Origin: Candidatus Omnitrophota bacterium
GTDB taxonomy: Bacteria > Omnitrophota > Gorgyraeia > Zapsychrales > Zapsychraceae
DNA length: 34,389 bases
Direction of reading: 5' to 3'
Assembly: GCA_015233495.1 (NCBI GenBank)
Contig: JADFXQ010000002.1
Span: 1-34,389, forward strand
The notes beneath the pieces were generated by a model, which saw only the letters and a list, made by a program, of their open reading frames with translations, was not told the origin of the DNA and did not search any database. Position 1 is the first letter of the stretch. Each line of letters starts with the position of its first letter. Positions 4,601-34,231 of this stretch are shown piece after piece. A program made the translations under genes and the position numbers.

Positions 4601-4620
4601 TGAAACCGTCATCTAACGGG

Positions 4621-16447: not shown

Positions 16448-16464
16448 TGTTCATAAAATGAACA
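16448..16464. promoter_or_regulatory. 17-bp palindrome spanning the start codon of the regulator gene
   Basis: TGTTCAT-AAA-ATGAACA, perfect 7-bp arms, just downstream of the -10 element. Confidence 0.5.
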
Positions 16465-17075
16465 GTTTAATTATCCAATCTTTTTTGGTTTTAAATCCCA
16501 TGGTTAAAGACGTTTTGAATGAGCGGGAATTTGAATTGATCAATATTCTTGGTCAAGGCTTGGGCGCTAATCAGCGGGATTTGTCGCAGCAAATGCAGCT
16601 CTCCCTCGGCATGGTAAACCTGATCATCCGCCGTTTGATTGCCAAGGGTTATATCCGCATTGAACAACTCAATAAACGCAAAGTGCAATATCTTTTGACT
16701 CCCAAAGGTTTTGCCGAAAAAATGCAAAAATCCATTAAATACACCTTGAAGACAATCAACTCAATTGCTTTTATCCGGGAACATATTAAAAATATGGTTT
16801 TAAATCTCAAGCAAACCGGGTATAAGGATTTTATCATTTTAGGGGATTCGGATTTATCCGTGCTGCTCGAAATGGCATTACGCGAACATTTTTCGCCAGC
16901 CGTACATTTGCGGCGAGTGAAAGAACTGCCTCCGGAAGGTTTTAACGGGATGTTATTGATTTGCAAAGAAGGGTATGAAAACGGGAAATGCCCGCGGACA
17001 AATACGGTAAATGTTTTGGAAGAAATCGCCCGCAGCGGTATGTTCAGTTTAAAAGGGGTGTTGGATGGCAGTTGA
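16458..17075 (+). CDS. Winged-helix MarR-EPS-like transcriptional regulator with extra C-terminal domain
   Basis: LNEREFELINILGQGLGANQRDLSQQMQLSLGMVNLIIRRLIAKGYIRIEQLNKRKVQYLLTPKGFAEKMQKS; heads a polysaccharide-type cluster. Alternative start at 16500. Confidence 0.8.
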   Translation: MNSLIIQSFLVLNPMVKDVLNEREFELINILGQGLGANQRDLSQQMQLSLGMVNLIIRRLIAKGYIRIEQLNKRKVQYLLTPKGFAEKMQKSIKYTLKTINSIAFIREHIKNMVLNLKQTGYKDFIILGDSDLSVLLEMALREHFSPAVHLRRVKELPPEGFNGMLLICKEGYENGKCPRTNTVNVLEEIARSGMFSLKGVLDGS

Positions 17076-18576
17076 AACGAAAACCGGAGACGCCGAATCC
17101 GGCGGAGAATCGATAGTCTGGATATTTGCGGCAGCCGCGCCGGCGCTAACTCTGCTCTGGGCATTCATTTTGCAAAAATGGTCTTGGGGGCTGATGGATG
17201 ATATTTCTTTGCTGAATCTGCCGGGCAATATTTTTCAGCGGGCTTGGACTATTTATCGCGGTTTTTTGGCCTTCGGAGAGTTGAAGCCGATTTTCGCCCT
17301 GCACGCGGCGGTTTTTTATCAAATTTTCGCGGGTTTCCCGACGGGATTTTACGTGTTTAAATTGCTGGAAACGGTCTTAACTCTGGCCGTATGGGGGTTG
17401 GCAGCGCGGCGTTTGACCGGTCAAAAAATTTCGTTTTACCTTGTGCCGGCCATCGCGCTTTCGTTTCATTATGTTTATGACATTGTTTTTTATTTGTCTT
17501 CGCATGAGATTTATGGGTTGTTTTTTTTGGGGTTGGCAGTATTGTCGTTTTTAAAAAGTATTGGTCCGGCTGCGGCGCCAACCGAGGGGGGAGCCGCTGT
17601 CGTGGTTTGGAGCTGGCCGGCCTGGTGCGCGGGTCTGGTTTATCTGTTTTTGAGTTTTTCGGCCAAAGAAACCTTCGCGCCTTTAGGCGCCGCGGTCGGT
17701 GTATATTATTTGTTTTGGGCTGGGATGTCGCGCCGCGAGAAAGGCGTTTGGCGGATGGCAGCTGCGGGAGTTTTGGTCTTGGCTGCGACCGCCCTCTATA
17801 TCTGGATTTTGTTGCATATCGTGCGGACTGGGTACACAACTTCCTATCATATTTTCGATTTTGCGAAGATCAGCGCCAACGCTTGGGTGTGGATGAAAAA
17901 AGATCTGTTGAACCACGCGCCTTGGCTGGCCGGCGCTTGGATCGTTTGGCGAACGTTCAACCGGAAAAACCCGACGAACCGCGTTTTAGCCAACCTCCCG
18001 CCGGGAGTCAGGGCGGGAATGGTCCTGGGGATTTGTTTTTATCTTTTTTTTCTCGGCGGGCTGCTTCCTTGGAATACCGCGGGATATTACGCCGCGCCCT
18101 TAGGGTTCTTTTTCGCTTTTATTCTGGCTTTGGCCGGCGCGCGACCGCTTGCGGCGCTGCCTTTGCGGCAACAATGTTGGGTAATTTTTGCCGCGCTGTG
18201 TCTTAATCAATTGGTGTGTTTCTATGCTTTGGACCGGGAGATGACTTATCACGCGGATTCGGACCAGCTCATGGCTTGGATCAGCAATAACCCGTCTTTT
18301 GCGGGAAAAAACAATTTGGGCGTTTATTGCAATGGGATGGAAGCGGCAGGCGCGATTCCAATGTTGATCAACCGTTTCGCGGGCCGGGAATTTTTGCCGT
18401 TTCATTATGCCGCTCCCGCCGCTTTGGCGCAAGCGGGAAAAAATTGCGCTTACTATCTTTATAGCCCGCGTTTCGGCAATTTGAATCCGGGTTTTGTTCA
18501 AGGCTGGGAGGCGGCATTCGCGAGCCGGCATTGGACCATGTATCAACGTCCCGTCGATAAAAAGGAGGCGCGGTGA
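17065..18576 (+). CDS. Multi-pass membrane protein, GT39/PMT-like glycosyltransferase candidate
   Basis: 503 aa with many TM helices; translationally coupled to the preceding gene and followed by GT2. Confidence 0.55.
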   Translation: MAVETKTGDAESGGESIVWIFAAAAPALTLLWAFILQKWSWGLMDDISLLNLPGNIFQRAWTIYRGFLAFGELKPIFALHAAVFYQIFAGFPTGFYVFKLLETVLTLAVWGLAARRLTGQKISFYLVPAIALSFHYVYDIVFYLSSHEIYGLFFLGLAVLSFLKSIGPAAAPTEGGAAVVVWSWPAWCAGLVYLFLSFSAKETFAPLGAAVGVYYLFWAGMSRREKGVWRMAAAGVLVLAATALYIWILLHIVRTGYTTSYHIFDFAKISANAWVWMKKDLLNHAPWLAGAWIVWRTFNRKNPTNRVLANLPPGVRAGMVLGICFYLFFLGGLLPWNTAGYYAAPLGFFFAFILALAGARPLAALPLRQQCWVIFAALCLNQLVCFYALDREMTYHADSDQLMAWISNNPSFAGKNNLGVYCNGMEAAGAIPMLINRFAGREFLPFHYAAPAALAQAGKNCAYYLYSPRFGNLNPGFVQGWEAAFASRHWTMYQRPVDKKEAR

Positions 18577-19355
18577 TTTATATTGTGCTGCCAATTTATA
18601 ACGAAGCCCGCAACATCCGTCCTTTGATCACGCAGCTGCGCGGTTTATTGGCAGGCCGCTCCTATAAGATCATCGCGGTCAACGATGGCAGCCGGGATGA
18701 GTCCCTGTCGATTTTGCAAGCGATGCGGGCGGAGGATTTGCATATCGAGAGCTCTCTCATCAATATGAATGTCGGCGCGGTTTTTTCCCGGGGCATTCAT
18801 TATGTTTTGACGGATTCCCGGGATGATCAGGATATATTGATCATCATGGAAAGCGATCAGACCAGTGAGATCCAAGTGATCAACCGCTTGGTAGACGCAG
18901 TGCAGTCCGGCGGGCAGGATATTGTGATTGCATCGCGTTATCAGGAACAGGGAGGATATCGGCGTTTTCCGCTGCTGCGGCGGCTTTTTAGTTCGTCGGC
19001 AAACCGGATGATGGGCTATTATTTCCCGATTTCCGGAGCAAGGGATTACACGATTTTTTTCCGGGCGTACCGCGTGGCGGTCTTGAAAATGGCGCAAACT
19101 TACTTTGGGCCGTTTGGTTTGATTCAGTCCAAGGGTTTTGTGGCCAACGCGGAATTGTTGGTGAAGTTGTCTTTATTCACGGACAAGATCGGCGAGGTCC
19201 CGTTTGTTTATGATTACGGAAAAAAATTGGGCAAAAGCAAAATCGGCATACTGCGCACCATCAATGAATATTTTGTCGCGGTTGCTTATTTAAAAAAATT
19301 ATTGCGGCGGGTTCAAGCTTTCCGCCGGGCCGCGGAACAAGCCGAACATATTTGA
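18573..19355 (+). CDS. Glycosyltransferase family 2
   Basis: IYIVLPIYNEARNIRPLITQL...IIAVNDGSRDESLSIL; GTG start overlapping the previous stop codon. Confidence 0.88.
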   Translation: MIYIVLPIYNEARNIRPLITQLRGLLAGRSYKIIAVNDGSRDESLSILQAMRAEDLHIESSLINMNVGAVFSRGIHYVLTDSRDDQDILIIMESDQTSEIQVINRLVDAVQSGGQDIVIASRYQEQGGYRRFPLLRRLFSSSANRMMGYYFPISGARDYTIFFRAYRVAVLKMAQTYFGPFGLIQSKGFVANAELLVKLSLFTDKIGEVPFVYDYGKKLGKSKIGILRTINEYFVAVAYLKKLLRRVQAFRRAAEQAEHI

Positions 19356-19364
19356 CGGGGTTTT

Positions 19365-20918
19365 ATGCCAAAACTTTTGTTCATCAATCCTTCTTACAAA
19401 GCCAGTTATGTTTCTCCTACGGCATCGATTCTTGATCCGGTGTTTCCCACGGTGGGACTGTTGTCCTTGGCCGCGGTGGCGGAAAAAGCGGGTTATGAAG
19501 TTGCGATTTTGGATTTGAGTTATCAGATTTATAATTGGCGCGTGGTCGCGGATCGGCTGCGGGATTTTAAGCCGGACATCGTCGGGCTCACCGGCACGAC
19601 ACCGTTGATGAATCAGATCCGGGATATGAGTGTTCTGATCAAAGAGCAATTTCCGCATATTCTTGTCGTGGCTGGCGGGGCGCATGTTTCCGCTTTGCCA
19701 AAGGAGAGTTTGGCCGAATCTTTGCTGGATGTTGTGGTGATGGGAGAGGGGGAAGCGACGCTGGGAGAAATTTGCCAAGGTGTCCCGCTGGAAAAGATCG
19801 CGGGGATCTGTTATCGCGACGCGTCCGGCTTGACGCGTCAAAATCCTTGCCGGGATTTTATCCCGGATTTGGATCAACTGCCGTTTCCTGCTTGGCATTT
19901 GTTTGACGCCCAGGAATATAAAAATAAAATCAGCCGTATTTTGACGCGCCGCGTGCCTTCGTGTATGGTGGAGTTTTCCCGGGGATGTTTGTACACCTGT
20001 GATTTTTGCGCCAGTAAAATCACCATGGGGCATGGTTATCGGAAAAAATCGCCGCAGCGCTGCGCGGCGGAAGTCCGGCGGTTATATGAATACGGCTGGC
20101 GGGAATTCGCTTTAACCGATGATATTTTTACCTCGGATAAGGAATGGGCCAAGGCGGTTTGTCAGGAAATTATTAAAGCCAAATTAGATATCATTTGGAC
20201 GTGCACCAACGGGATCCGCGTTGAATCCGCGGATACCGATCTCTTTCGGCTGATGCGTCAAGCGGGGTGTTACCGGGTTTCTTTTGGTTTGGAATCCGGC
20301 GATGAGTCGGTGTTAAAGGCTTTTGGGAAAGGCGGGGCCGCCACCCTTGCTCAGGGAAAATCCGCGGTGCAAAAAGCCAAAAAAGCCGGGTTAGACGTGA
20401 GCGGATTTTTTCTTTTGGGTTTGTCGCCGGACACGGAAGACAGTATGCGCAAGACCATTGAATACGCCAGCCGTTTGCCTTTGGATATGCTGAAATTTGG
20501 GATCGCGATCGGGTTTCCCGGCACCCGGATGTTTTACGAATACCAAGCCAAGGGGTTGATCAAATCATTCGATTGGGAAGATTATAATGTTTACACGACG
20601 CGGGGATTGTTCGCGCATCCGAATTTAAAATTCGAAACTGTGCAGGAATATGTGGCGCAGGCTTATCAAAAGGTGATTTTTGGCAATCCGGGTTTTATCC
20701 TCCGGCGGATTTTTCACAGCCTGTTGAGCGGCGACCTTTATTGGGACGGGTATTATGGCCTGAAGTTGGCACTGGCGCATCTGTTCCCGCGGCCGCAGCA
20801 AGCCGCGCAATATTACGCGCCCGACCGCTGGCCGAAATATGATTTTTTTCAGGCAAAAATGACTGCCGCGGAATTTCGCAAAGTAAAGACGGCTGTCCCT
20901 GCTTTAAACCAAGGCTGA
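19365..20918 (+). CDS. B12-binding-domain radical SAM protein
   Basis: FPTVGLLSLAAVAEKAGYEVAILD...VGLTGTT (B12-binding-type N-terminus); FSRGCLYTCDFCAS CxxxCxxC. Confidence 0.9.
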   Translation: MPKLLFINPSYKASYVSPTASILDPVFPTVGLLSLAAVAEKAGYEVAILDLSYQIYNWRVVADRLRDFKPDIVGLTGTTPLMNQIRDMSVLIKEQFPHILVVAGGAHVSALPKESLAESLLDVVVMGEGEATLGEICQGVPLEKIAGICYRDASGLTRQNPCRDFIPDLDQLPFPAWHLFDAQEYKNKISRILTRRVPSCMVEFSRGCLYTCDFCASKITMGHGYRKKSPQRCAAEVRRLYEYGWREFALTDDIFTSDKEWAKAVCQEIIKAKLDIIWTCTNGIRVESADTDLFRLMRQAGCYRVSFGLESGDESVLKAFGKGGAATLAQGKSAVQKAKKAGLDVSGFFLLGLSPDTEDSMRKTIEYASRLPLDMLKFGIAIGFPGTRMFYEYQAKGLIKSFDWEDYNVYTTRGLFAHPNLKFETVQEYVAQAYQKVIFGNPGFILRRIFHSLLSGDLYWDGYYGLKLALAHLFPRPQQAAQYYAPDRWPKYDFFQAKMTAAEFRKVKTAVPALNQG

Positions 20919-20930
20919 GCAAAGGACCTT

Positions 20931-21782
20931 ATGCCAGGCGTAAAAAAATTGATCGTAAACGCGGATGATTTTGGGTTGAGCCGCGGCGTAAACCGCGGTA
21001 TTATGACCTGTTATCATTCGGGCATTGTGCGCAGCGCTTCTTTGATGGCCAACGGCCGGGCATTCGACGATGCGGTGGCGGCGGCGCGGGATGTTCCGGG
21101 ATTGGGGGTCGGGGCGCACCTGAATGTTGTAAGAGGACGGCCGATAGCCAAAGCAGATTTTATTCCGCATATTGTGCGCGAAGGGCGGTTTTTTTTGACG
21201 GGCGCGGTCTTGGCTTTGCGATGTTCTAGAACTATGCTGGCGGAAATTGAGACGGAATACCGGGCGCAGATTGAAAAAATTTTGCAAGCCAACGTCAAGA
21301 TCACGCATTTAGACGGCGAGAAACATCATCATTGTTTTCCGCCTTTATTTGAGCGGGTTCTGCGGTTGGCGGAAGAATACGCGATTCCGGCAGTTCGGTT
21401 GGCGAAAGAGACGCCGCGTTTGTCCGCGGGGATAAAAGTTTTTCAGACATTGCCGTTATGGGCTTGCGCCGGGTTTAATCAAAGACAGCTGCGGCGATCC
21501 GCAGCGCGCAGCGCTGATTTTCAACAAGGCATTCATTTGACCGGCCGGATGAACCGGGAACAGGTGCGCGATATTCTGCGGACTTTGCCGCCGGGCGTGA
21601 CGGAGTTGTGCTGCCATCCCGGTTATGTGGATGAGTCGCATCAGCAGGATATTCAGGATCAGGGCCGGTTTTATATTGACGCGACGCGGGAAGCGGAGTT
21701 GCGCGTCTTAACGGACGAGGCAATTCAGCAGGAAGTGACGCGGCTCAATATTCAACTCATCAATTACGCGGGCCTGAATTGA
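20931..21782 (+). CDS. YdjC/ChbG-family carbohydrate deacetylase
   Basis: KLIVNADDFGLSRGVNRGIMTCYHSGIVRSASLMANG..., VGAHLNV, THLDGEKHHH, LCCHPGY. Confidence 0.9.
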   Translation: MPGVKKLIVNADDFGLSRGVNRGIMTCYHSGIVRSASLMANGRAFDDAVAAARDVPGLGVGAHLNVVRGRPIAKADFIPHIVREGRFFLTGAVLALRCSRTMLAEIETEYRAQIEKILQANVKITHLDGEKHHHCFPPLFERVLRLAEEYAIPAVRLAKETPRLSAGIKVFQTLPLWACAGFNQRQLRRSAARSADFQQGIHLTGRMNREQVRDILRTLPPGVTELCCHPGYVDESHQQDIQDQGRFYIDATREAELRVLTDEAIQQEVTRLNIQLINYAGLN

Positions 21783-21827
21783 CGGACCGGGTCATGGCCC
21801 AGAGATTTTTTAACAGACAGGACTAAT

Positions 21828-21974
21828 ATGCGAACCGAGGAAAAGCAAAATTGTCTGGGAAAGTTTGCGGCTTTTATTAAAATCTTGCGAGAGAAGCTCA
21901 GCCGTTGGGTTGCCAAGCCGCAAAAGCCGGACAGTCGGAATGAACCTCCGAAAAACATTTATCCGCTGTGGTGA
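21828..21974 (+). CDS. Candidate small protein (48 aa), not in the ORF track
   Basis: ATG 21828: MRTEEKQNCLGKFAAFIKILREKLSRWVAKPQKPDSRNEPPKNIYPLW stop; ends 4 nt before the SGNH start codon. Confidence 0.45.
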   Translation: MRTEEKQNCLGKFAAFIKILREKLSRWVAKPQKPDSRNEPPKNIYPLW

Positions 21975-21978
21975 AAAA

Positions 21979-23151
21979 ATGGATGAACATGATTTGCCGA
22001 GTCAGATTGCGCGTCTTTCACCGTCGATAAAATATCACGGGGTCTATCGGAACAGCGGATCCTGGCGCGATTTCCGGGTGGGCAACGCGCTTTTTCCTTT
22101 TGATCCGATTTATGGACACCGTTTGGCCAAGAATGCCGCCCTTTTTTTGCGGCGCAGCCGGACCAGCGGCGATCTTTGCGTGACGGACGCGGATGGGTTT
22201 GTGCCGAATGAGCTTCCCGGGACAGCGGCCCGGCAAAGGATCGCGGCAGCCAAACGCGCCAACCAGAAAGTGATTTTGGTTTATGGCGGATCCACGATTT
22301 TTGGTTATGGCGCCGGACTGCCGGAGCAAACTATCCCGGCCCATTTGGAGCGCTGTTTAAATGCGCAATACGGTTTTCCCTGTATTGTCGTGAATTGCGG
22401 GAATATTCTGTACGCGACTGATCAGCAGGTTTTATATTTACTGGAGGAAGGTTTGGAGCTTAAGCCGGATATTGTGATTTTTTATGATGGGTGGAATGAT
22501 AATGATTTTTTAAACGGCATGCTCACTTATCACGGCGCGGATTACGTGCCGGGCCGGGCGCGCCAGTCGTACCGGATGATCGAGCGGCAACAGACGCTTA
22601 TGTATTTTTTTCCGGCTTTCCGGCAGGTTCTTAAGTTGGGATTCCGCCTTTTGGTGGAAACGATGGAAGCTCTGCCTTTTTTTGGATGGCGCGGCATGAT
22701 GGCTTTGAACCGTTGGTGCCGGTCGTTTTTTTTTCATCCTTTGACCGGGGAATACACGGCCACAGAGTATCAACCGCGTTCAGTTGAGCGTTATGCTTAC
22801 AATATTCTGACCGCGGCCGCGCTTTGCCGGACCTGGGAGGTCGATTTTTTGCATTTTACGCAGCCGATTTTATTGCTTGCGGGTAAATCCCAAACTAAGG
22901 AGGAACAGAGTTTTATCGCGGGATTCAATTCGGAGTATTGCGCGATGACCCGCAATTTTTTTTCTGGTTATATCCGTCGGGATTTTCCGTTTGCGGCAGA
23001 ATTTGCCCGTCAAGTTCGGCAGGACCATGATTTGTCAGGTGTTTTTAATCAAACTGCGGAATCCGTGTTTATTGATCCGGGGCATCTGAACGGCCGGGGG
23101 AACGCGATTGTGGCGCAAGCGATCGCCGATCATTTAGTTAAACGAGGATAA
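21979..23151 (+). CDS. SGNH/GDSL-family hydrolase or acyl esterase
   Basis: VYGGSTIFGYGAGLPEQTIPAHLERCL, DIVIFYDGWNDND, C-terminal DPGHLNGRGNAIVAQAIADHL. ATG 21979 preferred over the annotated 21865. Confidence 0.8.
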   Translation: MDEHDLPSQIARLSPSIKYHGVYRNSGSWRDFRVGNALFPFDPIYGHRLAKNAALFLRRSRTSGDLCVTDADGFVPNELPGTAARQRIAAAKRANQKVILVYGGSTIFGYGAGLPEQTIPAHLERCLNAQYGFPCIVVNCGNILYATDQQVLYLLEEGLELKPDIVIFYDGWNDNDFLNGMLTYHGADYVPGRARQSYRMIERQQTLMYFFPAFRQVLKLGFRLLVETMEALPFFGWRGMMALNRWCRSFFFHPLTGEYTATEYQPRSVERYAYNILTAAALCRTWEVDFLHFTQPILLLAGKSQTKEEQSFIAGFNSEYCAMTRNFFSGYIRRDFPFAAEFARQVRQDHDLSGVFNQTAESVFIDPGHLNGRGNAIVAQAIADHLVKRG

Positions 23152-23174
23152 TTTTTTTTTAACGGAGATCCGTT

Positions 23175-24143
23175 ATGAATGACGAACGATTTGATTTGAG
23201 CGTAATTGTGACGTTTTATAATGAACAGGACATCGCGCGGCAATTTCATGAGGCTTTGCTGCAGTCGCTGCTTAAAATTAAAAGTCGCTGCGAAGTGATT
23301 TACGTTAATGACGGGAGCCGGGACCAGACTCTGCCGATATTAAAGGAATTGATCGCGGCCAGCCCTGTCCCGGCGCGTTTGCTGGAATTGCGGCGCAATT
23401 ACGGTCAGACGGCGGGACTGCAAGCCGGGTTTGATCATGCCCGGGGCGCGGTGATCATCGCGATGGACGGCGATTTGCAGCATGATCCGGCGGAAATTCC
23501 GCGTTTTTTGGAAAAGATCGCCGAGGGATACGATGTGGTCAGCGGATGGAGAGAGAAGCGGATTGACAATTTTTTCATCCGGCGGCTGCCTTCTTTATTG
23601 GCGAACCGTTTTATGGCCGCGGTTTCCGGGATTGAATTGCATGATTTTGGCACCACTTTTAAGGCGTATCGCTCCGAGATCGTTCAAGATATCAATTTAT
23701 ACGGCGATCTCCACCGGTTTATCCCGGTGCTCGCGGCGCAAGTCGGAGCGCGGATCTGCGAGATCCCGATAAAAAATATTGTCCGGCCGAAAGGCAAATC
23801 CAAATACGGTTTGTCCCGCACTGCCCGAGTATTTTTTGACATTATGACTTTGGCGTTTTTTATGTCGTATTCGACCCGGCCGATGCATTTTTGGGGACGG
23901 TTAGGGCTGTTATTTTTTATGGCAGGCAGCGGGTTATTGTCTTATATCGTTTTGGATTATGTGATTTGGCACAATGATTTTCGCGGGACCATGCAATTGG
24001 CAGTAATGTTGACCATCATGGGGATTCAGTTTTTTGCCACCGGATTGATTTTGGAATATTTGACCCGGATCCATTACGAAGCGACGGATAAAAAAATATA
24101 TGCCGTGCGTCAGATTTATAAGAATGCCGCGGTCAAAAGTTAG
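23175..24143 (+). CDS. Membrane-anchored GT2 glycosyltransferase (DPM1/GtrB-like)
   Basis: LSVIVTFYNEQDIARQFHEAL...EVIYVNDGSRDQTLPIL...IAMDGDLQHDPAEIP; two C-terminal TMs. Confidence 0.92.
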   Translation: MNDERFDLSVIVTFYNEQDIARQFHEALLQSLLKIKSRCEVIYVNDGSRDQTLPILKELIAASPVPARLLELRRNYGQTAGLQAGFDHARGAVIIAMDGDLQHDPAEIPRFLEKIAEGYDVVSGWREKRIDNFFIRRLPSLLANRFMAAVSGIELHDFGTTFKAYRSEIVQDINLYGDLHRFIPVLAAQVGARICEIPIKNIVRPKGKSKYGLSRTARVFFDIMTLAFFMSYSTRPMHFWGRLGLLFFMAGSGLLSYIVLDYVIWHNDFRGTMQLAVMLTIMGIQFFATGLILEYLTRIHYEATDKKIYAVRQIYKNAAVKS

Positions 24144-24185
24144 TTTTTCCCCCGGAGAGACCGGGTTATCGCGACAGGCGGATTT

Positions 24186-26063: not shown

Positions 26064-26067
26064 CGAC

Positions 26068-26691
26068 ATGAACATCATTTTAGAAAATCAGCGTTCGGTA
26101 TCCGCCGCGAATGCCGACACTGCGGTTTTTGCCCGGGTCATTCGGGAAGCGGGGGTAAAAAATTTTTTGGATATGGGGACCGGCACAGGATATATCGCGA
26201 TTTATTTGGCCAAACACGGCATCCCGGTTGCCGCGTGCGACCTTTCGGCAGCGGCGGTCGATTTGGCCCGCAAGAATGTCCGGCGTAATGGCGTGACCGT
26301 GCCGGTATATCAATCGGATATGTTTTCCAACCTCAAGGGGACTTTCGAATCCGTGGGATTTAATGTGCCGTTTTCCCTGGGCTGCAAGGCTTTTCTGCCG
26401 GAGGGGTTAAAGGCCGCGTTGCGCCGCGTTTCCTGGATCAATGATTATTTGGTTTGGCATATTCCTCCGGCGATTTTAGCTCAGAGAGAGACAATGATCA
26501 GCCGGTTTTTGCGGGAGAGCGTACCGTTTTTGGACAAGTCAGGAAGGATATTTTTGCTTTTGTACCGTCCGGAAATCGAATTTGTTGCGCGGGAAGGAAG
26601 CCGTTTCGGGTTTGAATTCTCCCCTCGGGAAGCGGTAGAATTGGGCCCCCGCAACATGGTTGTGGCGCAGCTGCGCCGGGGAACGCAATGA
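26068..26691 (+). CDS. Class I SAM-dependent methyltransferase
   Basis: NFLDMGTGTGYIAIYLAKHGIPVAACDLSAAAVDLARKNVRRNG; overlaps the next gene. Confidence 0.8.
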   Translation: MNIILENQRSVSAANADTAVFARVIREAGVKNFLDMGTGTGYIAIYLAKHGIPVAACDLSAAAVDLARKNVRRNGVTVPVYQSDMFSNLKGTFESVGFNVPFSLGCKAFLPEGLKAALRRVSWINDYLVWHIPPAILAQRETMISRFLRESVPFLDKSGRIFLLLYRPEIEFVAREGSRFGFEFSPREAVELGPRNMVVAQLRRGTQ

Positions 26692-28079
26692 AAACCGAAA
26701 CTTTATTTATTAACCCGTTTTACCGGCAATTTGACGGCCCGATCACCGATAATCGTTTGCCGCCTTTGGAGCTGATCAATTGCGCAACAATGCTTAAGCA
26801 GCAAGGCCGGCTGGTCCGGGTCGTAGATGCGCACATTCAGCAGTGGGGAGCGGCGGATTTAGCACGGCGCGATTTGGACATTGATCCGGGGCTGGTGGTT
26901 ATGGGCACTTCGCCGCTCAATACGTGGCAATGCCCGCCAAAAACGATCGAGCCGTTTTTTACAGCAGCGCGGGCGATGAAAAAAAAGTTTCCCCAGGCTT
27001 TGGTGATCGGGTGCGGACCGGGTACTTGTTTTTTTCTGCGAGAAATGCTATCCGTTTGCGATTTAGTCATTGCCGGACAGCCGGAGCCATTTTTTCAAGC
27101 GGTTGGCAACCCCGGCGACAAAGCGGTGTTATTTGCGGCGCCGGGCGCGGTTTTTTTAGAACCCTCCGGAGAAATGACCCGGGTTGATCCCGTGCGCCGG
27201 GCGGATATGACGGCCTGGCCTTGTCCGGATTATAAGTTATTGGATTATCGGCAATACCGGTTTGGGGTGATGCGGGATTGGGTGGTGGAATTGGAAACTT
27301 CGCGCGGCTGTCCGCAATTGTGTGATTTTTGTTTTCAGGCCATGACGCATTATCAGTACAGCCATAAAACTGTCCGGCAAGTGATTGCCGAAATGCGTTA
27401 TGTCGCGGCGGAACTGGGCGGCCGGGATATTTTTTTCGCGGATCTGGACATGGGAGCGGACCAAAATTTTTTAAAGGAATTGCTCCCTGCCATGGCTGCC
27501 GAGCAGTTTCCGTTGCGCTGGTCCGCAAATTTTCGTTCAGGGTGTTTGAATTCGGAATTGCTTCCGCAGCTCCGGCGAGCCGGATGCCAGGTCGCCTTGA
27601 TCGGTGTGGAGAGCGCCGACGAACAGTTTCAGCAGGCGATGGGAAAAAACGCCTCGCTCGCGCAGCTGCGGCAACGGATCGCGTTAGCGCAAAAACACGG
27701 TTTGGAAGTCGCGGGTTACTTTATGATTGGTTTGCCCGCCGAGGATGAGAGCCGGATCAACGCGACCGTGCGTTTGGCTCAGGATTTGAATTTGGATTAT
27801 GCCAGTTTTCAAATCCAGACGAGCTATCCGGATCCCGCCCGCCCGGGACAGTGTAAGGAAACCGGCGGGTTGCCGCAAGTATCGGCCGAACGTCTGGCGG
27901 AATTGCAGTCGCTGGCTTATCAAAAATTTTATCTGCGGCCGGGATACATTTTGAAAAAATTTCCTTTATTGGCAAATCCGCGGAATTTGTGGTCGCATTT
28001 GCGGGTTTTTGCGCAAACTTTTCAAAGGAAAACAATCGCCGTACAGAGAGGAATCAGCGATGCAGCTCAAACAAAATGA
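26688..28079 (+). CDS. B12-binding-domain radical SAM protein
   Basis: LPPLELINCATMLKQQGRLVRVVDAH..., LETSRGCPQLCDFCFQ CxxxCxxC. Confidence 0.88.
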   Translation: MKTETLFINPFYRQFDGPITDNRLPPLELINCATMLKQQGRLVRVVDAHIQQWGAADLARRDLDIDPGLVVMGTSPLNTWQCPPKTIEPFFTAARAMKKKFPQALVIGCGPGTCFFLREMLSVCDLVIAGQPEPFFQAVGNPGDKAVLFAAPGAVFLEPSGEMTRVDPVRRADMTAWPCPDYKLLDYRQYRFGVMRDWVVELETSRGCPQLCDFCFQAMTHYQYSHKTVRQVIAEMRYVAAELGGRDIFFADLDMGADQNFLKELLPAMAAEQFPLRWSANFRSGCLNSELLPQLRRAGCQVALIGVESADEQFQQAMGKNASLAQLRQRIALAQKHGLEVAGYFMIGLPAEDESRINATVRLAQDLNLDYASFQIQTSYPDPARPGQCKETGGLPQVSAERLAELQSLAYQKFYLRPGYILKKFPLLANPRNLWSHLRVFAQTFQRKTIAVQRGISDAAQTK

Positions 28080-28857
28080 ATGGTCCGTGCAGTGGCAGAA
28101 TTTGAGGCATGACGGCTGTGATCAATCCGGCGCGACCCAACAGCATTTTTTGAATTTTTTTTTAAAACCTTATGATGCCGGCATTTTTAAAAATAAAGTC
28201 GTTCTTGACGCGGGGTGCGGGGGAGGGGATAAATTGTTTTTCCTGTCTGCTTTGGCCCGGCGGGTGATTGGCGTTGATTTGAACACTCAGTCTGTTGTGG
28301 CTCAGCGCATACAAGACCAGGGCTGCTGCAACGTCGAGTTTATCGAAGCGGATTTGGCGGAGCTTAAACTTCCGGAACAGGTCGATATTCTCATATCTGA
28401 TGGAGTGATCCATCACACGGTAGATCCAGACCGCACGTTTGCCAACCTAAAAAGCTTAGTTAAACCCGGAGGGCTCATGATGGTGATGGTTTATGCCCAG
28501 GAGGGCAATTGGGTCAATCAGCATATTTTGAATAAAATTTTTGCGATCACGCGTGCTTGGCCGTATATCTTAAAACGGTGGTTGGCAGTTTTTTTGGCCC
28601 GGTGTTTACGCGGTTACGGCCGGGTTATCTGTTTTTGCCGTATCACGGGTTTGCCGTTTTATCGGTATTTGCATGATTATTTTTTGGGGATGTCGTTTTC
28701 GATGAATGTTTTGGATATTTATGATCAAATTAACGCGCCGCTGGTGTATTACATCGCGCGGCAGGATATCGAGCGTTGGTTTCAGGATGATTTTGAAGAT
28801 GTGAACATCTTTCACGAAAAAGGCGTTACTTGGGTCGCGAATGGACGGAAAAAATGA
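28060..28857 (+). CDS. Class I SAM-dependent methyltransferase
   Basis: VVLDAGCGGGDKLFFLSALARRVIGVDLNTQSVV...DGVIHHTVDPDRTFANLKSLVKPGGLMMVMVY; ATG 28060 inside the end of the previous gene. Confidence 0.88.
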   Translation: MQLKQNEWSVQWQNLRHDGCDQSGATQQHFLNFFLKPYDAGIFKNKVVLDAGCGGGDKLFFLSALARRVIGVDLNTQSVVAQRIQDQGCCNVEFIEADLAELKLPEQVDILISDGVIHHTVDPDRTFANLKSLVKPGGLMMVMVYAQEGNWVNQHILNKIFAITRAWPYILKRWLAVFLARCLRGYGRVICFCRITGLPFYRYLHDYFLGMSFSMNVLDIYDQINAPLVYYIARQDIERWFQDDFEDVNIFHEKGVTWVANGRKK

Positions 28858-31154
28858 ACAACGTAGCTTGGCCACAATCCTTATTTAAAGATATTTTTGC
28901 TTTGGTGTTATTGGCAGCCGTGTATTTTTTCTTAGCCGTGCCGAGTATAAATTGGGATCATGTCGAACTGCGTAAAGGGTATGGCACGGATCCGGACAAA
29001 GGGGGGATCAGTGAGGCCTTAGGTTACGCGTATCACTTTAAAGAAAATTGGTCAGTGGGATATAAAACTTATCCGCAAGGCTATGGTCTGGGTTTGGCCC
29101 TGTTTTATAAAACCGCGGTGTTTATTGCCCAGTCATTTCATAGGTTGCCGGATTTCGCGTTGACGGTCGCCAATAATGTTTATGGGCGGATGCCGTCTGC
29201 CGACGTAAAAATCTCCACTATTGAAGGCCGGACTTTCTTTTTGTTTTTGGCCCGGTGGTATTCTGTGCTTTGGGGGTATTTGACCTTGGTCTTGGTCTAT
29301 ATGATCGGACGCGACCACTATGGCCGCAGATCAATCGGATTGGCTAGCGCGTTTTTTTTAATGGCGTCATATTCTTTTATGATGCTTGCCCAGCTGGCGA
29401 AATATCCGGCGATGGCCAATTTTTTTGTATTTCTTAATCTTTATTATATTTACGTGGTTTTACGCTATCCGGGCTGGCGGACGTATATCCTCGCCGGGAT
29501 TTGTGCCGGGTTAGGATCCGCGGTGATTTATTACCACGCGATCTTTATATTTTTTCTGGGCCTGGCCCATATTCTCGCTTTACCGGCGGCAGAGCGCCGC
29601 AGTTTCAGAAAGCTATTTTTTCATCCCTATATGATCGGCGCGGGAATGGCTTTTCTGCTGACATTTGGCGCGCTCAATCCCCGGATTATCAAATGGGGAT
29701 TTGCTTTATTATTGGATCTGATTGGCTGGTCGTCGATTTTCGGCGGGACAGGCGGCCGCGGGGACGTGTTGATTTATCATCGGTATCACGGCCTGTTTTC
29801 CTTGCTCGGCAATCTGCGCGACCATATCGGGCCGGCTTTGTCCGCGGCGGTTTTGGCGGGTTTGGTCGCCGCGGTAGCGTGGCGCAAAGAAAAGATGATT
29901 TTGCTGACGCTTTTGATCGGTTTGTTTTATAGTTGGTTTAGTTTGGCGGCGCCGGAAACCTACATCATTTTTTTATCGTTTCCTGTTTTTTATTTGGTTT
30001 TTTCCCGGGCGCTGGTTCAGAAGATGGATCGGTTTTTGGGGAATACAGTCCCGGTGGTTGGGCGGCGCGTTTTGTTGGCTTTGATCGTGGCAGTCATTTC
30101 GGCCGGGGGATTTTTACGGATCTACGCTCAAGGTTTGATTAACACGCAAATTTCTTCTCCGCTGCTTGCCCGGATGTGGATCCAACGCAATTTGCCGCAG
30201 GAGGCGATTTTGCTGACCGAGGCTTATGGGGTGATGGCGAATGATCATTCGGACCAGATTTTTCGCATTTCATTTCAAGGCGGGAAAAATGATTTATCGC
30301 ACAATTTATGCGATATGACCTGGGACGCGGGAGAAAAAATATTTAACGCTCAATATGCCGTGGCGGGCGGGAGGTTTTATTCCGAAACTTTTTCCGAAGA
30401 GAATGTTAACCGCTATCCCGCGTTTAAAAAACAGCTTTCTCCCCGGGGCATCGGTTATGGATTGAGAGAAAGTTATCAGACGTATCGGAATCTGTTACAA
30501 CAAAACGCTGTCTTGGTGAAAGAGTTTCCTCAGGGCAAGTGGATTGGGGAAGATCAGCTTAATATTTTAGGATATCAGTTTCTCGGGGTTCCGCTGGCGC
30601 AGCTGCCGGCTTTTTTGACTGATCCCCGGGCCAGGTCCTATGGGTATGGCGTGAAAATTTATCGTTTAACTCCGGAGTTTTGGGCCGCTTTTGAAAAAGC
30701 GGCAGGCGCGTCGATTACCCGACAGAGCGCGGCGAATCAAGATCTCCGGGATTTTCCGCCGCAGGGTTTTAAGACGGAAATGCGCGTGGATCCGTTGCGG
30801 CGGGATATTCAGGTCAATGTGTGTTGGCAAAATAACCAAGAAAGGATTTTAAGACAGCTGTTTTTTTGTTTAGAACATTGTAATCGGCAAAATAAAAGTC
30901 ACGCTTATTTTATCGATAGGATCAAAGATGTGCTGCGCCAAGAGAGCAATCAGGCAAGCTGGACGTTTAATGAAATGGATTTTCCCCGGCGGGAAAGTTA
31001 TTGTTCCACTTACCGTTTAGCAATACCGCCGGGTTTAAAAAAAGGGAAATACACCTTAAAGATGACCAATACGGCAGCTGGGGATCAAGTTTATAAAATC
31101 GGTAAAATTATTTTGGACGGACAAATTATTGTCCGCGACTGCCAAGCCAGGTAA
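28854..31154 (+). CDS. Large multi-pass membrane protein, GT39/ArnT-like glycosyltransferase candidate with soluble C-terminal region
   Basis: About 766 aa; TM-rich N-terminal 60 percent, soluble C-terminus; ATGA overlap with the preceding gene. Confidence 0.6.
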   Translation: MNNVAWPQSLFKDIFALVLLAAVYFFLAVPSINWDHVELRKGYGTDPDKGGISEALGYAYHFKENWSVGYKTYPQGYGLGLALFYKTAVFIAQSFHRLPDFALTVANNVYGRMPSADVKISTIEGRTFFLFLARWYSVLWGYLTLVLVYMIGRDHYGRRSIGLASAFFLMASYSFMMLAQLAKYPAMANFFVFLNLYYIYVVLRYPGWRTYILAGICAGLGSAVIYYHAIFIFFLGLAHILALPAAERRSFRKLFFHPYMIGAGMAFLLTFGALNPRIIKWGFALLLDLIGWSSIFGGTGGRGDVLIYHRYHGLFSLLGNLRDHIGPALSAAVLAGLVAAVAWRKEKMILLTLLIGLFYSWFSLAAPETYIIFLSFPVFYLVFSRALVQKMDRFLGNTVPVVGRRVLLALIVAVISAGGFLRIYAQGLINTQISSPLLARMWIQRNLPQEAILLTEAYGVMANDHSDQIFRISFQGGKNDLSHNLCDMTWDAGEKIFNAQYAVAGGRFYSETFSEENVNRYPAFKKQLSPRGIGYGLRESYQTYRNLLQQNAVLVKEFPQGKWIGEDQLNILGYQFLGVPLAQLPAFLTDPRARSYGYGVKIYRLTPEFWAAFEKAAGASITRQSAANQDLRDFPPQGFKTEMRVDPLRRDIQVNVCWQNNQERILRQLFFCLEHCNRQNKSHAYFIDRIKDVLRQESNQASWTFNEMDFPRRESYCSTYRLAIPPGLKKGKYTLKMTNTAAGDQVYKIGKIILDGQIIVRDCQAR

Positions 31155-31165
31155 GGGAGGGGCGG

Positions 31166-32350
31166 ATGACCCAAATACAGGATAAAAAACGGGTAATAGC
31201 GATCATTCCCGCCCGGGGAGGGTCGAAATCGATTCCGCAGAAAAATATTTTTTCTTTTTGCGGCAAGCCGCTTTTAGCCTGGTCTATAGAACAAGCGAAA
31301 CAAAGCGAATGTGTCGGCGAAGTCTATGTGTCCACGAATGATGCGGGTATCGCGCAGGTGGCTCAGGCCTATGGCGCTCAAATTATTTGGCGGCCGGAAG
31401 AACTTTCTGGTGATACGGCTTCTTCCGAGACGGCAATCGAACACGCTTTGCAGCAAATCGAACAAACGCAAAAAGTGGATTTGGTGGTCTTTTTGCAAGC
31501 CACTTCGCCGGTGCGGTTGAAAACGGATATTGACCTGGCCATGCGGCATTTTCACGCCCTGCAGGCGGATTCTTTATTTTCCGCGGCGGAAGTGACGGAT
31601 TTTTGTTTGTGGAAAAAAGCGGATGACCGGTTTGAAAGTTTTTCTTTTGATTATCAAGCGCGCGGTCAAAGGCAGACGCGGCCGCCTTTGTATTTGGAAA
31701 ACGGGTCAATTTATATTTTTTCGCCGGGAGCGCTGCGGCAATACCACAATCGTCTGGGCGGGAAGATTACCGCGTTTTTGATGCCCCGGGAAAGATCTTT
31801 TGAAATTGACACGGCGGAAGATATTCCCGTGTGCGCGCATTTTCTGCGGCGGATGCTGGCCGCTTCCCAGCCGGCCGTCACGGCCCGCGATGTTGATTTA
31901 CTGGTCTATGATTTTGACGGAGTCATGACGGACAATAAAGTGATTGTCCAACAGGACGGCTTAGAAGCGGTGGCGGCCAACCGCGGCGACGGACTCGCGG
32001 TCGCGCTTCTAAAAAAACAGGGCTGGCGACAAATGATTGTTTCCACCGAAACCAACCCGGTTGTGGCTAAGCGCGCCCAGAAGATCGAGATCCCGGTTTA
32101 TCAAAGTGTGGGCGATAAAAAACAATGGGTAATGGATTATTGCGCGCGGGAAAAAATTGATTTAAGCCGCGTGCTTTATGTGGGAAATGATTTGAACGAT
32201 CTCGCGGTGATGTCGGTTGTCGGCTGGCCGGCGTGTCCGCTGGACGCGCATCCTGTCGTTAAAGATAGCGCGCGGATTGTTTTAAATCGGCGCGGCGGGG
32301 ATGGCGTGATCCGCGCGTTGTATGACGTTTTAAATTCCAAAAAAGAATAA
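31166..32350 (+). CDS. Fused acylneuraminate (CMP-nonulosonate) cytidylyltransferase + KdsC-like HAD phosphatase
   Basis: VIAIIPARGGSKSIPQKNIFSFCGKPLLAWSIEQA (NeuA-like) then DLLVYDFDGVMTDNKVIVQQDG...NRGDGLAVALLKKQG...YVGNDLNDLAVM (KdsC-type HAD). Confidence 0.92.
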   Translation: MTQIQDKKRVIAIIPARGGSKSIPQKNIFSFCGKPLLAWSIEQAKQSECVGEVYVSTNDAGIAQVAQAYGAQIIWRPEELSGDTASSETAIEHALQQIEQTQKVDLVVFLQATSPVRLKTDIDLAMRHFHALQADSLFSAAEVTDFCLWKKADDRFESFSFDYQARGQRQTRPPLYLENGSIYIFSPGALRQYHNRLGGKITAFLMPRERSFEIDTAEDIPVCAHFLRRMLAASQPAVTARDVDLLVYDFDGVMTDNKVIVQQDGLEAVAANRGDGLAVALLKKQGWRQMIVSTETNPVVAKRAQKIEIPVYQSVGDKKQWVMDYCAREKIDLSRVLYVGNDLNDLAVMSVVGWPACPLDAHPVVKDSARIVLNRRGGDGVIRALYDVLNSKKE

Positions 32351-32365
32351 AAAAGGAGAATCCAC

Positions 32366-33208
32366 ATGTCGGTGTTTTTTATCGCGGAAATCGGAATCAA
32401 TCATAACGGCGATATGGCGATTGCCAAGAAATTGATCGATGTGGCTTCGTTCGCCGGATGCGACGCGGTGAAGTTTCAGAAAAGGACGATTGATAAAGTT
32501 TATTCCCGGGAGTTGCTTGATTCGCCGCGGGAAAGCCCCTGGGGGAAGACCCAGCGCGCCCAGAAAGAGGGATTGGAATTCAATGAAAAGCAATATGATG
32601 AAATCAACGCCTATTGCCAACAAAAAAACATTGCCTGGTTCGCTTCGGCGTGGGATGTGGACAGCCAAATTTTTTTAAGAAAATATCCGACCCGTTACAA
32701 CAAAGTGGCTTCCGCGGTATTAACTCACGGGGATCTGATCGAACAGATCGCCGCGGAACGGAAACCCACGTTCATTTCCACTGGCATGAGTTCCTTGGAA
32801 GAAATCGACCGGGCCGTGGCGATATTCCGCGGCGCGCAATGCCCGTTTGAATTACTGCATTGCAACAGCGTTTATCCGATGCCGGACGCGGACGCTAATT
32901 TGCGCGTCATTGAAACTTTGGCGAAGCGTTATCAATGCAAGGTGGGATACAGCGGACATGAGGTGGGATTGCAAATCACGATGGCCGCGGTTGCTTTGGG
33001 CGCTACGACGATTGAACGCCATATCACCTTGGACAGATCCATGTACGGCTCGGATCAGGCCGCTTCCTTAGAGCCGACCGGGCTGTTGCGTTTAGTGCGG
33101 GACTGCCGGATTATTCATAAGGCTTTGGGCGATGGCGAAAAAAAAGTCTCGGATTCCGAGCTTAAAATTAAAAATAAACTCCGTCCGTTAAATTGGGGGC
33201 AAAAATGA
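32366..33208 (+). CDS. NeuB-family N-acetylneuraminate-type synthase lacking the C-terminal SAF domain
   Basis: FFIAEIGINHNGDMAIAKKLIDVASFAGCDAVKFQKRTIDKVYS...STGMSSLEEI...LLHCNSVYPMPD...GYSGHEVG...ERHITLDRSMYGSDQAASLEP; only 280 aa. Confidence 0.92.
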   Translation: MSVFFIAEIGINHNGDMAIAKKLIDVASFAGCDAVKFQKRTIDKVYSRELLDSPRESPWGKTQRAQKEGLEFNEKQYDEINAYCQQKNIAWFASAWDVDSQIFLRKYPTRYNKVASAVLTHGDLIEQIAAERKPTFISTGMSSLEEIDRAVAIFRGAQCPFELLHCNSVYPMPDADANLRVIETLAKRYQCKVGYSGHEVGLQITMAAVALGATTIERHITLDRSMYGSDQAASLEPTGLLRLVRDCRIIHKALGDGEKKVSDSELKIKNKLRPLNWGQK

Positions 33209-34200
33209 ACCAACCTGCGCAACGCTGGGTTTATCTCAACGGCGAATATGTCCGGGAGGCAGACGCGAAAATTTCGATTTTCGATTCCGCTTTGATGTTC
33301 GGCGACATGATTTTTGAGATGACCCGGTCTTTTAATAAAAAACAGTTCAGGCTCCGGGAACATTTGGAGCGGCTCGCTTTGGGGATGAAAATATTTCATA
33401 TTCCTTTGGACTTGTCGGTCGATCAATTGGAAGCCCGCTGTTTAGAAGTAATTGAAAAGAATGAGCCGGCTTTCAGCAAAACGGATGAGCATCGGCTGAT
33501 GATCAATGTGAGCCGGGGACCGTTGAGCATCTATCATAAGGTTTTTGACCGCCCGGTTGGTCCGACCGTGGTGATCGCGGATTTTCCTTTGAAGTGGACA
33601 GTGGTAGGGATGGGCGCTTTGTTCGACAAAGGGATCAATGCTGTGGTGCCGTCGCAACGGGCGATCCCGGCAGCTTTGATGGACCCCAAAATCAAAAATC
33701 GCAGCCGGATGTTTTATCAAACCGCGAACATCGAGTTGTCCCGGATGAAGGGGGAAAATAATTGGGCGTTATTGTTGGACCCCGACGGTTTTATTGCCGA
33801 AGGCACCGGTTGTAATTTTTTTATCGTAAAAGACAAAAAAATCTTTACCCCGGAGGGCAGAAATATTTTGCGGGGCATCAGCCGCAATTATATTTTTGAA
33901 CTGGCCGAAACATTGGGTATTTCTTGCCGGGAAAAAAATCTTGAACCCTATGATGTGTACGCGGCGGACGAGGCCTTTGTAACTGCCACGCCGTTTTGCG
34001 CTTTGCCGGTAACGCATTTTAATTTTACCAAAATCGGTTCCGGCGCGATGGGGGCGGTGACGCGTCAGCTGTTAGACGTTTGGGGAAAAAATGTCGGGGT
34101 GGATATTGTGCGGCAAATTAAGGCCTTTAATGAGGAAGTGCAATTGGCGAGCGCCGGCCCCGTGTCAACGCCGTATCAATTTAAGACAGAAGAAAAATGA
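33205..34200 (+). CDS. Class IV (BCAT/DAAT-fold) PLP aminotransferase
   Basis: VYLNGEYVREADAKISIFDSALMFGDMIFEMTR, DPKIKNRSRM, GFIAEGTGCNFFIVKDKKIFTPEG.NILRGISR; ATGA overlap with neuB. Confidence 0.9.
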   Translation: MNQPAQRWVYLNGEYVREADAKISIFDSALMFGDMIFEMTRSFNKKQFRLREHLERLALGMKIFHIPLDLSVDQLEARCLEVIEKNEPAFSKTDEHRLMINVSRGPLSIYHKVFDRPVGPTVVIADFPLKWTVVGMGALFDKGINAVVPSQRAIPAALMDPKIKNRSRMFYQTANIELSRMKGENNWALLLDPDGFIAEGTGCNFFIVKDKKIFTPEGRNILRGISRNYIFELAETLGISCREKNLEPYDVYAADEAFVTATPFCALPVTHFNFTKIGSGAMGAVTRQLLDVWGKNVGVDIVRQIKAFNEEVQLASAGPVSTPYQFKTEEK

Positions 34201-34231
34201 CGATATTTTAATTTTGAATGGGTAAGCAAGG

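Follow-up and report, generated by a model that had tools for sequence, protein, structure and literature searches.

Can a run of glycan genes in which radical SAM proteins lie beside nonulosonate-type enzymes be regarded as one biosynthetic system, and which sugar would it make? The question is raised by a locus in the window studied here (34,389 nucleotides; bases 1-34389 of a 111-kb contig of an uncultured Omnitrophota bacterium), where fifteen open reading frames lie on the forward strand between positions 16458 and 34200, with intergenic gaps of -71 to +82 nt. The first-pass annotation had described a one-strand cluster of mostly overlapping or very close genes behind a strong promoter, and this description holds, far beyond chance: ahead of the locus is a sigma-70 promoter (16415-16442, forward strand; TTGACA and TATAAT with a 16-nt spacer) that matches the consensus at 12 out of 12 positions, whereas the region's 20 other promoter matches are no more than chance would give (21 in all vs 19.4 +/- 4.4 expected). 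The annotation's delimitation of a single 17.7-kb system has to be abandoned, however. The same-strand cluster runs beyond 53 kb of the contig, and the conserved unit within it begins only at 31166 and extends to ca. 36.9 kb. The cluster does not stop at position 34200; what follows is only a palindromic repeat of 165 bp (34225-34389, unstranded; MITE/REP-like, fold of -86 kcal/mol, z -10), which has more copies elsewhere in the genome and sits between the last gene in the window and the remaining module genes, outside the pathway, the next partner gene starting at ca. 34392. An Rfam scan of the window gave a c-di-GMP-I riboswitch, located outside the cluster, as its sole match.

The explanation that we favor, with a probability of roughly two in three, is that the locus is a surface-glycan cluster combining two predicted acidic-sugar pathways with glycosyltransferases and decorating enzymes, and that the window holds the 5' portion of this surface-polysaccharide or glycoconjugate locus. 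The earlier suggestion of a surface glycan or glycolipid locus with a nonulosonate-type module is supported. Together with the consensus promoter, the locus appears to open with an EPS-type MarR regulator (16458-17075; TIGR04176, 51.8 bits, under the cut-off of 88), of which 46-59% identical copies occur at EPS loci of genomes G001, G005, and G017; in relatives it marks the start of diverse EPS loci. Pfam and NCBIfam models assigned most of the genes that follow, all on the forward strand, and agree with the list given before for the regulator, two GT2 glycosyltransferases, a YdjC deacetylase, AsnB, two methyltransferases, NeuA-HAD, NeuB, and a class IV aminotransferase. One GT2 (18573-19355; PF00535, E 7e-17) is followed further downstream by a second (23175-24143; PF00535) of the ArnC/PgfS-like polyprenyl-phosphate sugar synthase type, with two C-terminal transmembrane helices and an NF007986 score of 167.7 bits, under cut-off. 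Between them lie a YdjC-type carbohydrate deacetylase (20931-21782; PF04794, E 3e-65) and the reported SGNH hydrolase (21865-23151), which is retained as SGNH-like, since its PF13472 match has an E-value of 3e-4 but falls under the cut-off; its actual start is probably downstream of the ORF start. The AsnB-type amidotransferase (24186-26063; PF00733, E 1e-99) is closest to that of XrtA/PEP-CTERM (EPS) systems (TIGR03108, 580 bits vs a cut-off of 817), and the methyltransferases are encoded at 26068-26691 (PF05175) and 28009-28857 (PF13847; likely start ca. 28060). Two PMT-like membrane glycosyltransferases had been proposed, one of which is indeed of the PMT_2 type (28830-31154; PF13231, E 1e-7; likely start 28854), while the other (17065-18576) has no match in Pfam or NCBIfam and is GT-C-like by topology only (at least seven hydrophobic stretches).

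The first-pass annotation had also joined two B12-type radical SAM proteins to the nonulosonate genes. The first protein (19365-20918) does carry a B12-binding domain next to its radical SAM domain (PF02310/PF04055); HpnJ and BchE models match it under cut-off, and its nearest solved structure is AprD4-like (6fd2). The second (26688-28079; PF04055) has no B12-domain match in Pfam and aligns to B12-radical-SAM family models with scores that are all under cut-off. If the whole 17.7 kb were one undescribed system, the task of these two proteins would be the chemical modification of a glycan or glycolipid that bears a nonulosonate. Their intact CxxxCxxC motifs, their position among glycan genes, and the proximity of the first to AprD4, which acts on sugars, would fit this, as would the other B12-radical SAM families found near short NeuB genes (see below) in several Omnitrophota and other loci; one 463-aa family with 38-68% mutual identity is common to G001, G017, L041, L047, and L048. 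We nevertheless consider it very unlikely: the second protein has no orthologue in the 236 other Omnitrophota genomes searched, none of the seven orthologues of the first occurs among the 18 genomes with a short NeuB, their neighborhoods have almost nothing in common with the window, and the gene block from the MarR regulator to the PMT_2 protein is not conserved next to the short-NeuB module. These missing orthologues and unlike neighborhoods in Omnitrophota rule out radical SAM and nonulosonate genes as a conserved unit. A third B12-radical SAM protein is encoded downstream of the window in the same cluster. Loci with a short NeuB hold 12 B12-radical SAM proteins in 1.33 Mb and genome G000 has 7 PF02310 matches in 2.1 Mb, counts that are not like-for-like. 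As part of the favored explanation, and at the same odds, the radical SAM proteins, the YdjC and SGNH-like proteins, AsnB, the glycosyltransferases, and the methyltransferases would be locus-specific decoration genes.

The genes that are conserved start with a NeuA-HAD fusion (31166-32350; PF02348), a putative CMP-ulosonate synthetase joined to a KdsC/Kdn-9-P-phosphatase-like HAD domain. Both parts score under curated Kdn, KdsC, and PseF cut-offs (e.g., NF058599, 90 bits vs 180; TIGR01670, 86 bits, also under cut-off), structure matches of the HAD half are 3mmz and 3e81, and the fusion recurs in loci L041, L060-L062, L067, and L109. It is followed by a short NeuB (32366-33208; 280 aa; PF03102, E 3e-72, 243.6 bits), predicted to be a PEP-condensing ulosonate(-phosphate) synthase, that lacks the C-terminal SAF (antifreeze-like) domain, its TIGR03569 match stopping at position 274 of 329. 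In Neisseria NeuB, Arg314 of this domain positions the N-acetyl group of ManNAc, while KDO8P synthase is without a SAF domain (PMC6795526). The short NeuB carries the motifs GYSGHE, ERHIT, and GSDQ, altered relative to the canonical active-site motifs, and these changes suggest an altered active site. Its clade is separate from canonical NeuB sequences in the tree (support 99/98), and a length of 273-291 aa is kept in 80 out of 80 relatives, whose loci were chosen by peptide patterns including GSDQ, so that the frequency of GSDQ among them is biased. The nearest solved structure without a SAF domain, 6ncs, was rejected as a representative of this subfamily since its YSDH and EKH motifs are canonical. 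The last gene in the window encodes a class IV aminotransferase, here AT4 (33193-34200; PF01063, E 1e-46; likely start 33205).

The module continues outside the window with a TIM-barrel epimerase, whose best structure match is the L-ribulose-5-P 3-epimerase UlaE, and two short-chain dehydrogenases, SDR1 and SDR2 (34.4-36.9 kb of the contig); SDR2 is PtmA-like (NF050062, 112 bits, under the cut-off of 350). The full order NeuA-HAD, short NeuB, AT4, TIM epimerase, SDR1, SDR2 is also found in Proteobacteria MAGs (L060-L062), part of it in Clostridium (L042), Azonexaceae (L084), Chloroflexi (L087), and SAR11 (L099), and parts of the module occur in ca. 20 phyla including SAR11. The combination of NeuA-HAD, short NeuB, and class IV aminotransferase that had been put forward as a test of neighborhood conservation is conserved across phyla; the radical SAM genes are not kept with it. 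In 80 named short-NeuB loci, tblastn recovered SDR2 in 41, the TIM epimerase in 38, and HAD in 35, and clustering showed a GmhA-like SIS isomerase in 23 and HAD-SIS fusions in 10. Within Omnitrophota, only 18 out of 237 genomes carry a short NeuB and 4 carry AT4, in all four cases within 2 kb of the short NeuB; in the 80 loci, which were picked for having a short NeuB, AT4 copies with 58-70% identity adjoin it in 11. AT4 thus is an aminotransferase dedicated to this module, with a role that is predicted. A plasmid- or phage-borne module was ruled out, as no more than 4 plasmid and 2 phage records contain a relative of the short NeuB and none of the plasmid records contains AT4.

That flippase, polymerase, NeuC, and Leg genes were reported as missing, and a standard legionaminic locus was dismissed for that reason, is a window-edge effect: the window ends inside the cluster, whose continuation in the next 30 kb of the contig has, all in the same orientation, NeuC and Leg-type genes as well as genes for an ABC exporter and a polymerase-like membrane protein. 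The Leg-type genes (41.0-48.9 kb of the contig) match most steps of the legionaminic pathway (PtmE-LegB-LegC-LegH-LegG-LegI-LegF; PMC4481668). They encode a PtmE-like protein (CBS and NTase domains), a LegC-like aminotransferase (383 bits, just below the cut-off of 420), a NeuC/LegG-type hydrolysing 2-epimerase (contig 46721-47893, same strand; TIGR03568, 458 bits, cut-off 236), a full-length NeuB/LegI of 335 aa with SAF domain (TIGR03569, 475 bits over 329 positions, cut-off 400), and a second NeuA (NeuA/LegF). Unlike in the known pathway, the dehydratase is weakly LegB-like (58 bits vs 475), no LegH acetyltransferase was found in the contig locus, where only a 138-aa PglD N-domain ORF adjoins LegC, and a formyltransferase and a PIG-L deacetylase, which may point to an altered N-acyl group, adjoin the set. 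As judged from these genes, the locus also holds a legionaminic-type pathway with a near-complete gene set. The entire locus could then produce ordinary legionaminic acid, with the short NeuB, NeuA-HAD, and PtmA-like SDR as redundant or accessory genes, a view that gains from the acceptance of PtmA, PtmF, and PtmE as Leg-pathway genes (PMC4481668) and from Azospirillum thermophilum and Leptospira (PMC3438082), in which a second NeuB likewise accompanies a Leg set. SDR2 could indeed serve this pathway here, since PtmA is legionaminic in Campylobacter. However, of the 80 short-NeuB loci just 2 have a NeuC-like gene and 9 a PtmE-like gene, so that the short NeuB and SDR2 usually occur without a Leg set; the short NeuB, moreover, has other motifs and no SAF domain, and the Leg route needs no separate HAD phosphatase. 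This makes ordinary legionaminic acid as the only product quite unlikely.

As partners of the short NeuB, the HAD phosphatase and the GmhA-like isomerase imply that a CMP-ulosonate is reached through phosphorylated sugars, much as in the Kdn and Kdo pathways, and the conserved module probably makes an unusual sialic-acid-like sugar in this way. The UlaE-like epimerase and the two SDRs would process a sugar phosphate, an aldose phosphate would be joined to phosphoenolpyruvate by the SAF-less NeuB, the HAD half of NeuA-HAD would take off the phosphate, and the NeuA half would form the CMP-sugar. AT4, as committed partner, probably installs or supplies one amino group, and a LIC12162-family transferase at ca. 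36.9 kb is a candidate glycosyltransferase. The locus itself has no SIS isomerase gene; a 42%-identical GmhA-like gene is present elsewhere in the genome. The presence of HAD in fewer than half of the loci suggests that the phosphatase may act in trans or that in some lineages the substrate is not phosphorylated. A simpler product would be plain Kdn from mannose-6-P and PEP, as in Bacteroides, with AT4, the TIM epimerase, and the SDRs acting on another sugar of the polymer. The resemblance of NeuA and HAD to Kdn/Kdo-pathway enzymes, the shared logic of synthase, phosphatase, and cytidylyltransferase (PMC6200933), and the fact that N-acetyl binding is dispensable for a SAF-less NeuB (PMC6795526) agree with it, but the recurrent TIM epimerase, SDR2, SDR1 or GFO, and AT4 or class III aminotransferase would be superfluous for Kdn and the HAD falls under the Kdn-9-phosphatase cut-off, so that we regard plain Kdn as unlikely.

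Predictions of nonulosonic acids, the relatives of sialic acid, usually start from NeuB homologues, with NeuC, Leg, or Pse gene sets in mind. A widespread SAF-less NeuB clade with its own partners would mean that the wrong sugar is predicted for many environmental genomes, and members of the clade are annotated just as "N-acetylneuraminate synthase family protein." If AT4 acts on a sugar backbone, this would, to our knowledge, be an uncommon role for an aminotransferase of fold type IV. Our broader proposal is more tentative, and we hold it with somewhat less than even confidence: an undescribed, horizontally spread pathway in ca. 20 phyla, with SAR11 and single cells of Prochlorococcus among the carriers, in which NeuA-HAD, short NeuB, a class IV or III aminotransferase, a UlaE-like epimerase, an SDR or GFO/IDH oxidoreductase, a PtmA-like SDR, and often a GmhA-like isomerase would yield a new CMP-activated (amino-)ulosonic acid purely from phosphorylated sugars, without nucleotide-sugar intermediates. 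No description of a module of SAF-less NeuB with AT4, SIS, and TIM proteins was found in the open-access literature, to which the search was confined. Carriers in culture (Azospirillum thermophilum and Alteromonas sp. a30) make the prediction testable.

Besides the legionaminic pathway, the nearest studied relatives are the Leptospira nonulosonate cluster, the sfmABCDE operon of Shewanella, and the Kdn pathway of Bacteroides thetaiotaomicron. The cluster of Leptospira interrogans, for which a phosphorylated route has been proposed as well, likewise has a full legionaminic set beside a second, divergent synthase, along with another NeuA and one more aminotransferase, but the divergent enzyme is a fusion with an endonuclease-like domain (PMC3438082). 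The flagellin-modification operon sfmABCDE of Shewanella oneidensis encodes a 290-aa NeuB-domain protein, SfmA, and a weakly PtmA-like SfmC, and sfm deletions abolish a nonulosonate-type modification (274 Da plus nitrogen-free C9H16O7, 236 Da; PMC3765264). The pairing of a SAF-less NeuB with a PtmA-like SDR is shared with our module, SfmA being likened by its description; sfmABCDE, however, includes enzymes of the TPP and ATP-grasp types, neither of which is among the genes identified at 16.4-53.2 kb of the contig, and no AT4, TIM epimerase, or NeuA-HAD. The route to Kdn of Prymnesium parvum and B. thetaiotaomicron, established in the latter, shares with the module a sugar-phosphate synthase, a phosphatase related to its HAD (NF058599, 3e81), and a CMP-synthetase (PMC6200933), but in the module NeuA and HAD are fused and TIM, SDR, and aminotransferase genes are added; as the HAD reaches only half of the curated cut-off, we consider the module to work like the Kdn-9-phosphate pathway rather than to be a member of it. 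Compared with the Kdo pathway (KdsD-KdsA-KdsC-KdsB), the synthase has a NeuB fold instead of being KdsA and the isomerase of relatives, in some cases fused to HAD, is GmhA-like and not KdsD, yet a SAF-less PEP synthase, a KdsC-like HAD, and a CTP transferase would follow one another in the same order of steps.

The window comprises bases 1-34389 of a 111,186-bp contig (C34) in a genome of 2.1 Mb that is 91% complete. The open reading frames of the candidate cluster (16458-34200), their common strand (+) and their tight spacing (-71 to +82 nt) were all confirmed, as was the strong promoter, which shows a 12/12 sigma-70 match and stands out from the other promoter matches of the region, these being at shuffle level. 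The family assignments of the first-pass annotation mostly hold, with small corrections: in rSAM_B, one of the two radical SAM proteins of the cluster (26688-28079), Pfam recognises no B12 domain, the first membrane “glycosyltransferase” matches no family, and the match to SGNH is a weak one (E 3e-4). The locus is flanked on one side by a secreted protein of 750 aa without family assignment (13988-16240, minus strand) and on the other by a 4224-aa ORF (C34:72263-84937, plus strand), the N-terminal part of which resembles this protein by eye. The window also holds a c-di-GMP-I riboswitch (4627-4712, minus strand; 78 bits vs. a gathering threshold of 35) immediately 5' of a minus-strand ORF of 138 aa (4196-4612).

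The cluster had been considered novel because NeuC, Leg genes, a flippase and a polymerase seemed to be missing inside the window, a claim that does not survive beyond its edge, where the same strand runs on with a legionaminic-like set and an ABC exporter. The next gene encodes a UlaE-like TIM-barrel isomerase (C34:34392-35273, +), and after it, all on the plus strand, come SDR1, the PtmA-like SDR2, a transferase of the LIC12162 family (333 bits against a cut-off of 225), a protein resembling surface-carbohydrate glycosyltransferases and a methyltransferase. NeuA/LegF lies next, at about 41.0 kb, ahead of an epimerase/dehydratase, an aminotransferase of the LegC family (383 of 420 bits, i.e., below the cut-off), a PglD N-domain ORF, a full-length NeuB (475 bits against a cut-off of 400), a formyltransferase, a PIG-L deacetylase and NeuC (458 bits against 236). 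These are followed by a PtmE-type CBS plus nucleotidyltransferase protein, the ABC exporter, a third B12-radical SAM and another methyltransferase. The gene set thus provides a legionaminic-like pathway together with an exporter. The truncated PglD, the formyltransferase and the PIG-L deacetylase adjoin the full-length NeuB and NeuC (C34 about 43.8-46.7 kb, equivalent to L006:9762-12728), and an N-formylated legionaminic-type sugar is possible. Judged by eye from the sequence, an O-antigen-ligase/polymerase-like membrane protein is encoded at 62.5-63.9 kb, and WecG-like and polyprenyl-phosphate-transferase-like genes near 89-91 kb. The last 165 bp of the window (34225-34389) form an almost perfect palindrome (RNA fold -86 kcal/mol, z -10) with further copies on contigs C17, C18, C30, C45, C59 and C86 of the same genome; it is an element of MITE/REP type that has inserted into the module.

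The proposed joint conservation of the radical SAMs with the nonulosonate module was likewise not found. Among the 237 Omnitrophota genomes rSAM_B has no orthologues, and the seven orthologues of rSAM_A (19365-20918; 37-51% identity) occur in genomes that are not among the 18 carrying a short NeuB, and their surroundings share hardly any genes with the window. In the regions of six relatives the glycosyltransferases, both radical SAMs, YdjC, SGNH, AsnB and the methyltransferases of the window do not accompany the module; the MarR_EPS start marker is the only front-half gene that recurs around short NeuB (3 of 6 regions). Other B12-radical SAM families do occur near short NeuB, and radical SAMs may fairly be described as frequent, exchangeable decorations of these glycan loci. 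One 463-aa family (38-68% mutual identity) is found near short NeuB in different phyla (L041:17446-18837, L047:7944-9335, L048:14459-15919, and the regions of genomes G001 and G017) and is a better candidate for an association of radical SAM and nonulosonate genes than the pair in the window.

Seven short NeuBs (51-67% identity) were aligned for one scan of named genomes, of which the best 80 loci were analysed. All encoded proteins are 273-291 aa long, leaving no room for a SAF domain, and they carry GYSGHE, ERHIT and GSDQ where the canonical NeuBs of relatives carry GYSDHT, EKHFT and GPDH, GSDQ being part of the scan pattern itself and thus selected for. A maximum-likelihood tree separates short from canonical NeuB with support of 99/98 and has the phyla intermingled within the short-NeuB clade, as expected if the gene has been transferred horizontally. 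Alteromonas sp. a30 and Azospirillum thermophilum are carriers that have been cultivated. NeuB relatives with 43% identity to short NeuB are also encoded in a 484-kb uncultured phage (LR756508.1:322769-323578) and a marine virus single-cell record (MH319754.1:87479-88288).

The neighbours counted by tblastn in the best 80 loci are SDR2 (41), the TIM isomerase (38), the HAD (35), SDR1 (25), GFO/IDH (14) and the class IV aminotransferase AT4 (12, 11 of these at 58-70% identity). Unbiased clustering of all neighbour ORFs also brings up a GmhA-like SIS isomerase in 23 loci, a HAD-SIS fusion in 10, a class III aminotransferase in 12 and a small glyoxalase-like protein in 8. AT4 never occurs together with the class III aminotransferase, nor SDR1 with GFO/IDH (0 of 80 loci each), and this mutual exclusion suggests that they are alternative parts of one pathway. 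The order NeuA-HAD (31166-32350), short NeuB (32366-33208), AT4 (33193-34200), TIM, SDR1 and SDR2 of the window is also present in three Proteobacteria MAGs (L060, L061 and L062), in the first of which a SIS gene sits between AT4 and TIM. In the Omnitrophota only 18 of the 237 genomes possess short NeuB, and AT4 orthologues (69-70%) occur in four, each time within 2 kb of it.

Three lines of evidence point to a phosphorylated route for the module, with predicted steps: NeuA is fused to a HAD resembling KdsC and Kdn-9-P phosphatase (in the window and six other loci), and elsewhere such a HAD is fused to an isomerase; a ketose/aldose-phosphate isomerase of GmhA type often accompanies the module, and the only solved relative of the TIM protein is the sugar-phosphate epimerase UlaE; and short NeuB misses the SAF domain. 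The predicted order would be isomerase, PEP synthase, phosphatase and cytidylyltransferase, as in the Kdo pathway. The Kdn pathway follows this same order (PMC6200933). In Neisseria NeuB, Arg314 of the SAF domain positions the N-acetyl group of ManNAc, and KDO8P synthase functions without this domain (PMC6795526). The HAD-SIS fusion adjoining short NeuB (L053:360-1451 and nine other loci) may be a pointer to the substrate of the pathway. On a Methylomagnum ishizawai plasmid (L128) a short-NeuB relative with a HAD has split transketolase halves and a class III aminotransferase as neighbours, a hint that the precursor may be a ketose phosphate made by transketolase. AT4 keeps the fold-type-IV signature, with a DPKIKNRSR motif taken to hold the PLP lysine, and has an FEMTR motif, at the position of which E. 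coli BCAT has FEGIR; the enzyme may either transfer an amino group to the sugar or provide a D-amino acid for N-acylation.

The general kind of system is already known; for the composition and breadth of the module no description was found in the open-access literature searched. Among experimentally studied systems, the closest are the Kdn pathways (PMC6200933), the Shewanella sfm operon (PMC3765264) and a Leptospira cluster (PMC3438082). In Shewanella, SfmA is a 290-aa NeuB-domain protein, SfmC is PtmA-like, and the flagellin sugar carries a nitrogen-free C9H16O7 moiety (PMC3765264). The Leptospira cluster combines a Leg set with a divergent second synthase, and a phosphorylated route has been proposed for the latter (PMC3438082). 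A comparable arrangement occurs in Azospirillum thermophilum: a plasmid carries short NeuB adjacent to a complete Leg set, and a TIM-barrel protein, a radical SAM and several SDRs are encoded close by.
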